Source of the DNA: Kibdelosporangium persicum
GTDB taxonomy: Bacteria > Actinomycetota > Actinomycetes > Mycobacteriales > Pseudonocardiaceae
NCBI RefSeq assembly: GCF_013280595.1
Contig: NZ_JAAATY010000011.1
Location: 186,001-250,000, forward strand
Direction: 5' to 3'
Length of the DNA: 64,000 bases
In this document: positions 44,311 to 49,113 of the stretch, one piece after another
Layout of the letters: every line of letters begins with the position of its first letter
How positions within the stretch are numbered: position 1 is the stretch's first letter
The notes under the pieces: generated by a model
The model's database searches: none
What the model saw: only the letters and a program-made list of their open reading frames with translations
Told to the model about the DNA's origin: nothing
Program-made: the position numbers and the translations under genes

Positions 44311-44726
44311 CGAGCGAGGCCGCGCGCACGGCCGCGCTGTTGACCAGGGCCCGTGAGGCGCTGGAGCTGTACCACGAGATCTTCATCGACGACGACGGCA
44401 CGCTGACCTTCCGGCACGGCGACGTACCCTGCGCCGTGCAGGCGATGCAGCTGGCGGAAGGCCTCAACGTGCTGAGCGTGCAGTGCGTGGTGGCGTGGGA
44501 TCTGCCGGATTCCCCGGAGGTCGTGACGTCGGTCGCCGACAGGGGCGGAGAAGCTCTGTTCGGCACGGCGGCGGTCGTGCACACTGATCACGGCATCGAC
44601 GTGACCCTGCGCTACACGTTCCCCGCGGAGGGTCTTGACGTCAACGCACTGGGCACGTTGTTCATGCTGGTCGTGTCCGGTGCGTCCCAGTTCCGGACGG
44701 ACCTACTGGCGGGATCGCAACGGTGA
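44307..44726 (+). CDS. YbjN-like hypothetical protein
   Basis: 139 residues, coupled to uppS by a GTGA overlap and to the next gene the same way. An alternating alpha/beta pattern with an N-terminal helix, [11 protein letters not shown] strand and a C-terminal helix resembles the YbjN/type III chaperone-like fold common in actinobacteria. No catalytic residues apparent. Confidence 0.7.
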
Positions 44727-45742
44727 CCACAGTCGCGGCGGACCAAGAAGACACGCATCACCATCCCAAACCCAGACGGCGGCTGCCGATCGGATCACTG
44801 GAGATCCTCTGCGTCCTGCTCGTGGTCGCGGTGGTGTTCCAGGACTCGCTGGCGAGCCTGCTCGGCTCCGAACTGATCCGCACCGCGGCGACGAGATTCG
44901 TCGCGGTATGCGTACAGGCGATCCCGTTCCTCGTGCTCGGCGTGCTCATCAGCGGCGCGATCGCGGCGTTCATCCCCGCCAGCGCGTTGCGGAAAGTCCT
45001 GCCGCGCAGGCAAGCGCTGGCCGTGCCGGTCGCGGGCGTCGCCGGTGTGGCCCTGCCCGGCTGCGAATGCGCGTCCGTGCCTGTGTCGCGGCGGCTGATG
45101 CAGCAAGGCGTGGCCCCGTCGGTCGCGCTGGCGTTCCTGCTCGCCGCACCCGCGGTCAACCCGATCGTTCTGGTCGCGACGGCTGTGGCGTTCCCCGGCA
45201 ATCCGGAGATGGTGGCAGGCCGGTTCTTCGGCTCGTTGGCCACGGCCATCGTGATGGGGTGGCTGTGGGCCCGTTTCGGCAAGCTGGAGTGGATGGCGGA
45301 GCGCGCGTTGCGGCGCATCCCCGACCGCGACGGCCGTTCGCGTTGGCTGACCTTCGTCGAGACGGCCCGGCACGACCTGGTTGACTCCGGCGGGTTCCTG
45401 GTGATCGGTGGCCTGACCGCGGCGATCCTGGGCGTGGTGGTGCCCGCGTCGTGGCTGGACAGCCTGAGCGAGCAGATCGTTCTGAGCGTGATCGTGATGG
45501 CGTTGCTCGCGGTGATCCTGGCGATCTGCAGTGAGGCGGACGCGTTCGTGGCCGCGTCGCTGTCGATGCTGCCGCTGTTGCCGCGACTGGTGTTCCTGGT
45601 GGTCGGCCCGGCGGTGGACGTCAAGCTGGTCGCCCTGCAGGCGGGCACGTTCGGCAAGTCGTTCGCGTTCCGGTTCGCGCCGGCGACGTTCCTGGTGGCG
45701 ATCGCCTGCGCGCTGGCGGCGGGATATCTGGTGGGTGTGTGA
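44723..45742 (+). CDS. UPF0718/DUF318 permease
   Basis: 339 residues, about eight transmembrane helices in two related halves. The first half has the family motif LPGCECASVPV (Cys114, Cys116), the second a CSEADAF segment. Cytoplasmic N-terminus with a HHH cluster. Related proteins (ArsP, YcgR) export organoarsenicals or other metals. The downstream TIGR03943 partner and the nearby zinc-type regulators suggest metal transport. Confidence 0.85.
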   Translation: MTTVAADQEDTHHHPKPRRRLPIGSLEILCVLLVVAVVFQDSLASLLGSELIRTAATRFVAVCVQAIPFLVLGVLISGAIAAFIPASALRKVLPRRQALAVPVAGVAGVALPGCECASVPVSRRLMQQGVAPSVALAFLLAAPAVNPIVLVATAVAFPGNPEMVAGRFFGSLATAIVMGWLWARFGKLEWMAERALRRIPDRDGRSRWLTFVETARHDLVDSGGFLVIGGLTAAILGVVVPASWLDSLSEQIVLSVIVMALLAVILAICSEADAFVAASLSMLPLLPRLVFLVVGPAVDVKLVALQAGTFGKSFAFRFAPATFLVAIACALAAGYLVGV

Positions 45743-46479
45743 TGAAGCGTGAGACGCAGAACATCCTGCTCGTGCTGCTCGGCGGCGCGCTGCTGAAAAT
45801 CGCCTTGAACGGCACGTACCTGCGCTACGTCAAGCCCGGTCAGCAGGCCTGGCTGATCGGCGCGGGCGCGATCATGGTCGTGCTGGCCTTCGTGTCGATC
45901 ACCCGCGACATCATCGCGGCCCGGCGGCCCGAACAGGTGGTGGCCGAAGTCGACGACCACGGTCACAGCCACGGCGGCTTCCAGTCGCACAGCACGTGGT
46001 TGCTGATCCTGCCTGTCCTGGCGGTCTTCCTGGCGCCACCAGCCCTCGGCGAGGACGCCGTCAACCGCGCGGCGGGCCGGACGCCACCGCCGCCGTCGTC
46101 CAGTCAGGACTTCAGCTTCCCGGCACTGCCCGCCGGTGACGTCATCGACCAGCGCGTGATGGACTTCGTCGAACGCGCGGCGTGGGACAAGTCCGGCTCG
46201 CTGAACGACCGCAACGTCCGGCTGACCGGGTTCATCGTGCACAAGGACGACTCGACGTACCTGGCACGCCTGGCCATCGGTTGCTGCGCGGCCGACGCGT
46301 ATCCGGTGAAGGTGAAGCTCGACGGTCCCGGGCTGGGCACGCTTGTCAGCGACACGTGGGTGAAGGCGGTCGTGCGCTACCAGCCTGGTTCGTCGACGAC
46401 GGAATCCCGCCACGTGCCGACGGTGACGCTGGCGGACATCCAGTCGGTCCCGGAGCCACCGGACCCCTACGAGTACTGA
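45742..46479 (+). CDS. TIGR03943 family (YcgQ-like) metal-associated membrane protein
   Basis: 245 residues from the ATG 45742, which shares one base with the permease stop. Two N-terminal transmembrane helices, a His-rich cytoplasmic or loop stretch DDHGHSHGGFQSHS (71-84), a third helix, then a soluble domain with a GCCAAD Cys pair (about 174-175). Always found with the UPF0718 permease. The His-rich loop is a likely Zn2+/Cu2+ binding site. Confidence 0.85.
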   Translation: MKRETQNILLVLLGGALLKIALNGTYLRYVKPGQQAWLIGAGAIMVVLAFVSITRDIIAARRPEQVVAEVDDHGHSHGGFQSHSTWLLILPVLAVFLAPPALGEDAVNRAAGRTPPPPSSSQDFSFPALPAGDVIDQRVMDFVERAAWDKSGSLNDRNVRLTGFIVHKDDSTYLARLAIGCCAADAYPVKVKLDGPGLGTLVSDTWVKAVVRYQPGSSTTESRHVPTVTLADIQSVPEPPDPYEY

Positions 46480-46530: not shown

Positions 46531-46947
46531 TCAGTTCGACTTGGTGCACTCCGCGCACGTGCCGAAGATCTCGACGGTGTGGCTGACCTCGGAGAACCCG
46601 TTCTCCTCGGCGACCCGGTCGGCCCACTTCTCCACCGCGGGTCCTTCGACCTCGACGGTGCGGCCGCACACCCGGCACACCAGGTGATGGTGGTGGTGGC
46701 TGGAGCACCGGCGGTAGATGGCCTCGCCGGTGTCCGTGCGCAGCACGTCGACCTCGCCCGCGTCCGCCAGGGACTGCAACGTCCGGTAGACCGTCGTCAG
46801 CCCGATGCCCTCACCACGTTTGCGCAGTTCCTCGTGCAGGTCCTGAGCGGACCTGAAGTCGTCGAGGTCGTTGAGGAGTTCGGCGACCGCGGCGCGCTGC
46901 TTGGTCGAGCGCCGGGCCGTGGCCGGCGGCGTGCGGTTGATCGTCAT
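46531..46947 (-). CDS. zur: Fur family regulator, Zur-like
   Basis: 138 residues. Winged HTH (GIGLTTVYRTLQSLADAGEV) followed by the dimer/metal domain: HHHHH with LVCRVC and the C-terminal CAEC forming the structural zinc site, and the regulatory His set. Pattern and setting fit Zur, the zinc-responsive repressor. ATG overlaps the ArsR stop, so both regulators are translated from one transcript. Convergent with the TIGR03943 gene. Confidence 0.88.
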   Translation of the reverse strand: MTINRTPPATARRSTKQRAAVAELLNDLDDFRSAQDLHEELRKRGEGIGLTTVYRTLQSLADAGEVDVLRTDTGEAIYRRCSSHHHHHLVCRVCGRTVEVEGPAVEKWADRVAEENGFSEVSHTVEIFGTCAECTKSN

Positions 46948-47327
46948 CAATTGTGAGCCTCCTCCACATGGGTGACCGCGTCCACCACGATATGCGAGAG
47001 ATGCTCATCGACCAGCCGGTAGACCACCTCCCGGCCGTGCCGCTCGCCGTGCACGACCCCCGCGGACTTGAGCACCCGCAGATGCTGGCTGATCAGAGGC
47101 TGGGCCACGCCCAGAGCGTCGACCAGTTCGTGCACACACCGGTCCGACTCGCGCAGCTGCAGGACGATCGAGATCCGCACCGGCGCGGCCAACGCACGCA
47201 GCAGATCACCCGCGGCCGTCAGCGTCGCCGGGGCGCGTGCGGGCGCGGGTTCTGTGGACGTCCGGCCCGGCGAATGCTCGCTGGTGGCCGGGTCAACGCT
47301 CACGTCTGTGGTCGACTCCTCGAACAT
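46947..47327 (-). CDS. ArsR/SmtB family metal-sensing repressor
   Basis: 126 residues from ATG 47327 (GAGGTGG upstream). Core winged HTH at about 38-105. The last helix carries Asp107, His109, His120 and Glu123, exactly the D-x-H-x10-H-x2-E alpha-5 zinc site of SmtB/CzrA-type sensors, so it should release DNA when zinc is in excess. A disordered 30-residue leader precedes the domain. Coupled to the Zur-like gene, the same architecture as the smtB-furB pair of mycobacteria. Confidence 0.9.
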   Translation of the reverse strand: MFEESTTDVSVDPATSEHSPGRTSTEPAPARAPATLTAAGDLLRALAAPVRISIVLQLRESDRCVHELVDALGVAQPLISQHLRVLKSAGVVHGERHGREVVYRLVDEHLSHIVVDAVTHVEEAHN

Positions 47328-47344
47328 CAGCCACCTCACTGACT

Positions 47345-48597: not shown

Positions 48598-48930
48598 TCA
48601 CGCTGCGTGTGCGCAGGTGGGGCAGGTGCAGTCTGCGCACGTGCAGTTCGCGCACGAGTCCGCACAAGACCCGCACGAGCAGGCCGCGTGGTTGCACGTC
48701 GGGCAGGCGCAGTCCGAGCAGGAACACACCGCACAAGAGTCCGAGCAATGCGGACAGGTGCAGGCGTCGCACTCGTCGTAGTGCACTCCGCGGTCGGTCA
48801 CGTGCTCCCGGTGCACGTGACCGTCGTGCAGGTAGTCCACGTGGTCGGCGTGCACGATCGCCTCGTGTCCGCAACTTGGGCCATGGGTGTGGCGGTGGGC
48901 TTCGGCCTGCTGGTGCGCGACCGTGGTCAT
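48598..48930 (-). CDS. His-rich protein with duplicated nine-Cys metallothionein-like modules
   Basis: 110 residues from ATG 48930 (AAGGGA upstream). Residues 1-53 hold 12 His and resemble small actinobacterial His-rich proteins with a GHEAIVHADHVDYLHDGH core. Residues 57-83 and 84-110 are two tandem 27-residue modules with identical cysteine spacing (C-x-C-x2-C-x3-C-x2-C-x-C-x2-C-x-C-x2-C, nine Cys each), plus Cys20 and Cys54: 20 Cys in total. Likely a soluble zinc or copper buffer. The ArsR/Zur pair about 1.3 kb away makes zinc the first guess. No transmembrane segment. Confidence 0.85.
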   Translation of the reverse strand: MTTVAHQQAEAHRHTHGPSCGHEAIVHADHVDYLHDGHVHREHVTDRGVHYDECDACTCPHCSDSCAVCSCSDCACPTCNHAACSCGSCADSCANCTCADCTCPTCAHAA

Positions 48931-49113
48931 GGTTGGTCCCTTCGGCGGTATCCTTCCTACTGAATGGTCGTATTCGTATCCGTGCATCACAACTCGGATC
49001 CGTGACGATCAAGCCAATGGAGTGATAGGGGAATCCCCTCGTGGTGGCCGGTGACAGGCGGCTACCCTGGCACTCCCCGAGCTTTTCCCCGTGTACCTGC
49101 ATATGGAGTGTTC

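Follow-up and report, generated by a model that had tools for sequence, protein, structure and literature searches.

A two-module Cys-rich protein of actinobacteria fused to a zinc-importer-type His domain: a candidate SmtB-controlled zinc metallothionein

Among the small metal-binding proteins of bacteria, cyanobacterial SmtA consists of a nine-Cys unit with His. An SmtB-family repressor gene adjoins the metallothionein gene in the smtB-smtA organisation, according to a passage of PMC7387436. The same portion of that source describes Zn3Cys9His and Cd4Cys9His clusters in the Pseudomonas metallothionein PflQ2, names MymT as the copper metallothionein of mycobacteria, and states that by 2020 biological function had been investigated for just two bacterial metallothioneins. 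A GATA-type zinc-finger fold is given as a trait of known prokaryotic metallothioneins in an excerpt of PMC10612145. On the regulatory side, a section of PMC7174638 reports that SmtB of M. smegmatis represses the exporter ZitA and that the SmtB binding site was not identified; smtB-zur co-transcription is known in mycobacteria from extracts of PMC7174638 and PMC6103462. An in silico survey of actinobacterial metallothioneins and metallohistins from 2010 is cited in a passage of PMC4531530. In the open-access literature, to which our search was confined, we found no experimental work on the family described below. The survey of Schmidt et al. (2010, J Basic Microbiol 50:562), which going by its title deals with actinobacterial Cys-rich and His-rich proteins, may list members of it.

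The window (the whole stretch of DNA that was analysed, 64,000 nucleotides of Kibdelosporangium persicum) holds a metallothionein-like gene that is present in one copy in the genome (Table 1). Its product has 20 Cys in 110 residues, as counted on the translation of 48598-48930, and displays the traits of the metallothionein class, being small and Cys-rich with CxC/CxxC throughout and few aromatics. An alternative longer frame with a GTG start would encode 130 aa; we favour the ATG because the family alignment starts near it. Searches of Pfam, NCBIfam and PHROGs returned no match for the 110-aa protein, and searches of the PDB by sequence gave chance-level matches only (best E 0.098 with the protein and 0.092 with the profile). 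AlphaFold modelled both the whole protein (mean pLDDT 55.8) and the His domain (49.9) at low confidence, and the whole-protein model depicts a Cys tail without notable strand or helix.

Table 1. Coordinates of the features discussed, numbered from the first letter of the window
Feature	Position	Strand	Basis or remark
Metallothionein-like gene	48598..48930	-	110 aa + stop; ATG at 48930
His-rich domain, residues 1-53 (12 His, Cys20)	48772..48930	-	homologous to ZnuB-type permease tail
Cys module 1, residues 57-83, nine Cys + C-x-H	48682..48762	-	translation, family pattern
Cys module 2, residues 84-110, nine Cys + C-x-H	48601..48681	-	translation, family pattern
Predicted SmtB-type operator over spacer and -10	48963..48979	-	PWM match 14.6
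Putative -35 TTGTGA	48987..48992	-	17 bases from -10 GACCAT at 48964-48969
ArsR/SmtB repressor, alpha5 DxHx10HxxE (DEHLSHIVVDAVTHVEE)	46947..47339	-	NF033788 87 bits, cut-off 55
Fur/Zur-family regulator	46531..46950	-	Fur-type models all under cut-offs; NF008646 (zinc Zur) 42.7 bits, cut-off 167
Permease beside TIGR03943, metal-transport candidate	44723..45742	+	NF033936 81.7 bits, below cut-off 300
TIGR03943 family putative permease subunit	45739..46479	+	133.8 bits, cut-off 88.8

Across 84,980 species genomes, a scan yielded at least 582 relatives, and the analysis went on with the 80 best. The Cys tail is found in 62 of these 80 best-scoring loci (L001-L061 and L065), all actinobacterial and including entries labelled Rothia, Actinomyces, Cutibacterium and Lentzea; the other 18 carry the His domain only, single or doubled. 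Together with the window gene the 62 loci make up 63 fused sequences. The fusion of His and Cys domains, which the sequence-only reading had presented as without known precedent, is thus real and not singular, at least 62 actinobacterial loci carrying it. The fused form is uncommon in even genome samples: in a sample of the phylum, 44 of 396 genomes match at E 1e-5 and just 2 along the whole model, and in a sample of the class, 14 of 394 have a match at E 1e-20, which in 13 extends to the end or nearly so, several even-sample matches being the same contigs as in the large scan. A tblastn search for mobile copies gave one partial plasmid match and one partial phage match. With the L036 protein as query, 14 plasmid records matched and none of the 14 covered 80%; the annotated neighbourhoods of two plasmid records (L131 and L132) held no obvious metal genes, and a third record (L133) carries no annotation. 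One contig labelled Rhodococcus rhodnii (L001) has the Kibdelosporangium gene order and a GlyS 97% identical to that of the window, and is probably a mislabelled or contaminated assembly.

Both Cys modules fit the pattern C.C..C...C..C.C..C.C..C.... with nine Cys each, and the Cys outside them are Cys20 and Cys54. The tandem 27-residue modules with nine Cys in register at an offset of 27, as claimed beforehand, were confirmed by counting on the translation, and the description of a metallothionein-like, modular protein gains from the family, in which 61 of 63 members keep the Cys pattern. Up to the ninth Cys the two modules agree at 6 of 14 non-Cys positions, and we therefore regard them as a true repeat. 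Two nine-Cys modules occur in 61 of the 63 fused sequences, with a strict 27-residue register in 45 as judged by our pattern; the exceptions are L058, with a single module, and L035, one Cys short. One member (L061) has 24 Cys. Modules 1 and 2 of the same protein share a mean identity of 0.45 at non-Cys positions (47 members), compared with 0.43 and 0.45 for like modules and 0.39 for unlike modules between species. They are near-identical in L034 (0.93 of non-Cys positions) and L032 (0.79). These values suggest an old module duplication with occasional re-copying.

The metal ligands stand out in the same comparison. Cys and His ligands dominate the columns that are invariant or at least 90% conserved in the 63-row alignment (A1), and C-x-H terminates both modules in all 61 two-module members. 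From nine Cys and an invariant C-x-H we derive a ligand set of Cys9His1 per module. The likeness to the vertebrate beta M3S9 cluster drawn in the sequence-only reading therefore holds for the nine Cys and falls short in omitting the C-x-H (61/61). By analogy with described clusters, each module would be expected to bind about three Zn or up to four Cd, and the tail six to eight ions.

The N-terminal half had been set apart as a separate His-rich domain with 12 His, a number that we recovered by counting in residues 1-53. An alignment of this domain (A2) has 61 rows and 15 invariant columns. When homologues of the half were searched for, its counterpart turned out to be the tail of ZnuB-type permeases: in nine of nine long ORFs tested, picked for length (L062, L063, L064, L067, L070, L072, L079, L089 and L107), the PF00950 ABC-3 permease stands in front of the same His domain. 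Sequence comparison thus shows residues 1-53 to be homologous to the domain at the C-terminus of these zinc importer permeases. The domain also occurs in stand-alone or doubled forms (L066, L068, L071, L084, L086, L090 and L105), while L095 and L100 yielded no reading. Stand-alone copies on the scale of 52 residues lie on plasmids (L131, 4962-5117; L132, 3702-3860 and 4956-5114) and are annotated 'zinc transporter permease', a label probably taken over from ZnuB proteins with the His domain at their end.

Near the gene are two regulators, both placed about 1.3 kb away by the sequence-only reading. The ArsR/SmtB gene starts at 47339, 1.26 kb off, and the Zur-like gene at 46950, 1.65 kb off. The end of smtB and the Zur-like gene overlap by 4 bases, and this smtB-zur pair does not form an operon with the metallothionein-like gene in the window; in the window's clade the gene is flanked by glyS and smtB-zur. 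The adjoining pair of permease and TIGR03943 genes (44723-46479), likely a second metal-transport unit, recurs next to the metallothionein gene of L026. In the wider family, tblastn detected an SmtB relative within the fetched locus DNA in 44 of 62 loci. By motif search, 28 of the 62 have SmtB immediately upstream in the same orientation, with the alpha5 pattern in 27 of those 28, and 15 more have it within 3 kb (alpha5 pattern in 15/15). The same search found none in 19 of 62; of these, L053 has SmtB by tblastn, and L035 begins at the locus edge. Clusters of flanking ORFs were mostly antisense noise and were used for the SmtB count only. The alpha5 pattern DxHx10HxxE is what we take to be the zinc site of SmtB, so an adjacent repressor with this pattern is found at the level of the family, the smtB of the window being the more distant copy described above. 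Two loci add zinc-import genes: the order is ZnuA, ABC-3 permease, SmtB and metallothionein-like gene in L049, and znuC, znuB and metallothionein-like gene in L057. In Rothia aeria (L028), the SmtB frame before the gene ends early and is without the alpha5 pattern.

A candidate binding site for the repressor was modelled as a position weight matrix (PWM) of 12 distinct 17-base sites around CGCATATGAGCAT, taken from 17 loci that each have their own promoter and none of which belongs to the window's clade. Over 64 kb and both strands, the best match falls at the predicted operator of Table 1, with 14.6 against 9.5 for the runner-up; 6 of 500 column-permuted PWMs likewise scored highest, within the window, just ahead of this gene. 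The layout TTGTGA-N17-GACCAT in the window recurs in relatives with the same N17 spacing, and the predicted operator overlaps this putative promoter, as far as sequence evidence goes. In smtB-first operons, with 1.5 kb searched, the best site lies within 140 bases before smtB in 18 of 28 and elsewhere in 10. Permuted PWMs averaged 9.3, and 6 of 300 reached 18; the mean best score was 11.5 against 7.4 for permuted PWMs, none of 300 attaining 11.5. Part of the excess before smtB reflects base composition, since the permuted mean of 9.3 exceeds a uniform expectation of 2.6, and permuted PWMs were chosen over a binomial P because intergenic DNA is AT-rich. The supposed link between regulator and gene is strengthened by the adjacency of SmtB in relatives and by the predicted operator just upstream of the gene.

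The position of the site varies. It precedes the start codon by 6-8 bases in ten loci (L005-L008, L010, L013, L016, L017, L020 and L027), a spacing that would fit leaderless transcripts, and by 34 bases in the window. Eight solo loci (L014, L015, L022, L024, L025, L029, L030 and L042) gave no site above 8.6. Upstream of the Actinomyces member L024, at about -155, lies a Zur-like box that departs from the published consensus at 3 positions and may point to another regulator for that member. Across the window's own genome, the operator pattern with up to 2 mismatches had 9 matches against 6 for a backwards control, and its perfect match arises by construction, the pattern having used the window's letters. 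In the other seven pattern loci viewed, no metal gene was recognised by eye, and with 9 matches against 6 and no metal genes alongside we claim no operator regulon in this genome. The stretch from the gene to glyS (48931-49050), including GGGGATTCCCC, is strongly conserved in the clade (L001-L004, L009 and L011).

We hold it likely that the protein is a cytosolic zinc, and probably cadmium, metallothionein that is derepressed through SmtB and carries a zinc-importer-type His domain. At low zinc, the gene would be silent, with apo-SmtB bound to the operator that overlaps the promoter. A rise in zinc or cadmium would load the alpha5 site and release SmtB; the protein would then be made and buffer the excess. 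By analogy with PflQ2, its two Cys9His modules could take up about six Zn, or as many as eight Cd, and the N-terminal His domain may offer weaker, faster-exchanging zinc sites that load and unload the clusters. The family would thus provide a candidate for a zinc metallothionein whose regulator and metal-ligand set are defined and whose operator is predicted; an operator can be proposed for an actinobacterial SmtB, and a metallothionein is tied to a zinc importer by a common His domain. A bolder version, in which we place rather little confidence, makes the protein a two-stage buffer whose His domain docks or relays zinc at or near the importer to and from the Cys9His clusters, with the conserved operator as the actinobacterial SmtB binding site. 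If so, one mobile protein would join zinc entry, storage and release.

Other readings were weighed against this one. Long antisense ORFs run across the gene, as they might if it were a spurious ORF or antisense artefact of high-GC DNA. In the sense frame, however, comparison with six relatives (L001-L004, L009 and L011) gives a dN/dS of 0.05-0.12, and the ligands are invariant over 63 rows; in an antisense control, pN exceeds pS in two of three frames, and in the remaining one pN is lower than pS, though by less than in the sense frame. Sequence data of this kind refute a spurious ORF, an explanation we regard as next to impossible, and indicate that 48598-48930 is a genuine gene kept by purifying selection. 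A more serious competitor is a store or ferry for zinc starvation that takes zinc from ZnuB and releases it in shortage under Zur. It would account for the ZnuB tail in the His half, for the znu genes that adjoin the gene in L049 and L057, for a Zur gene that closely follows it in L049, L053, L056 and L057, and for Zur-like boxes upstream of L024 (3 mismatches), L025 and L027 (4 mismatches). The recurrent partner is nevertheless SmtB, a sensor of excess, and the window gene lacks an upstream Zur box with up to 6 mismatches among the 20 best matches listed, at a weak threshold that allowed 111 matches in 139 kb of flanks. Zur control of the window gene thus found no support among those 20 best Zur-box matches, and we consider a starvation store improbable.

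The remaining alternatives concern what the thiolates bind. Thiolate clusters bind Cu(I) well, which would suit a copper metallothionein like MymT of mycobacteria. That protein is an actinobacterial copper metallothionein, as a portion of PMC7387436 records. By contrast, the neighbouring genes found here encode Zur, Znu proteins and an SmtB that carries the zinc alpha5 pattern, and the conserved His ligands would favour divalent metals, so that a copper role appears very unlikely. A thiol-based scavenger of chromate or oxidants would match the ChrB-type gene and major-facilitator transporter near the gene in L017, the transporter-like ORF, so named from its sequence, that adjoins it in L036, and a Frankia candidate chromate gene whose product, with CXXC motifs and numerous His, an excerpt of PMC4531530 describes as a possible metallothionein. 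Pfam-confirmed chr context was nonetheless found in just 1 of the loci examined, and SmtB is a far commoner partner; we give such a scavenger even less credence than the copper protein.

Returning to the SmtB-controlled zinc metallothionein, we compared it with the known systems. Homology to the SmtA/BmtA/PflQ2 family was found neither in Pfam nor in NCBIfam, and phmmer and profile searches of the PDB to E 10 returned no SmtA-type chain, in searches whose HMMER filters drop weak matches and whose libraries were taken without a by-name check for an SmtA entry. As no homology to solved metallothioneins was found, we speak of a protein that would work like a metallothionein rather than of membership of a known sequence family. 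The cyanobacterial SmtA/SmtB system is alike in its small Cys-rich protein, its nine-Cys unit with His and its adjacent SmtB-family gene. It differs in having one module where there are two here, and no His domain in front; smtB is divergent there and is usually upstream in the same direction here. The Cys spacing is far more compact in the present family than in SmtA. The vertebrate beta domain likewise has nine Cys in one module, but these are its only ligands, without His, whereas C-x-H ends each module here; searches of Pfam and the PDB found no homology to vertebrate metallothionein. MymT, compared by description only, is also an actinobacterial metallothionein, but a copper protein. PflQ2 shares the Cys9His1 ligand set per cluster with no detectable match in PDB phmmer and profile searches, and unlike the present protein it is a single domain with no metal regulator alongside, as a passage of PMC7387436 describes it. 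The ZnuB (ABC-3) tail is the same domain as residues 1-53, joined there to a membrane permease and here to Cys modules.
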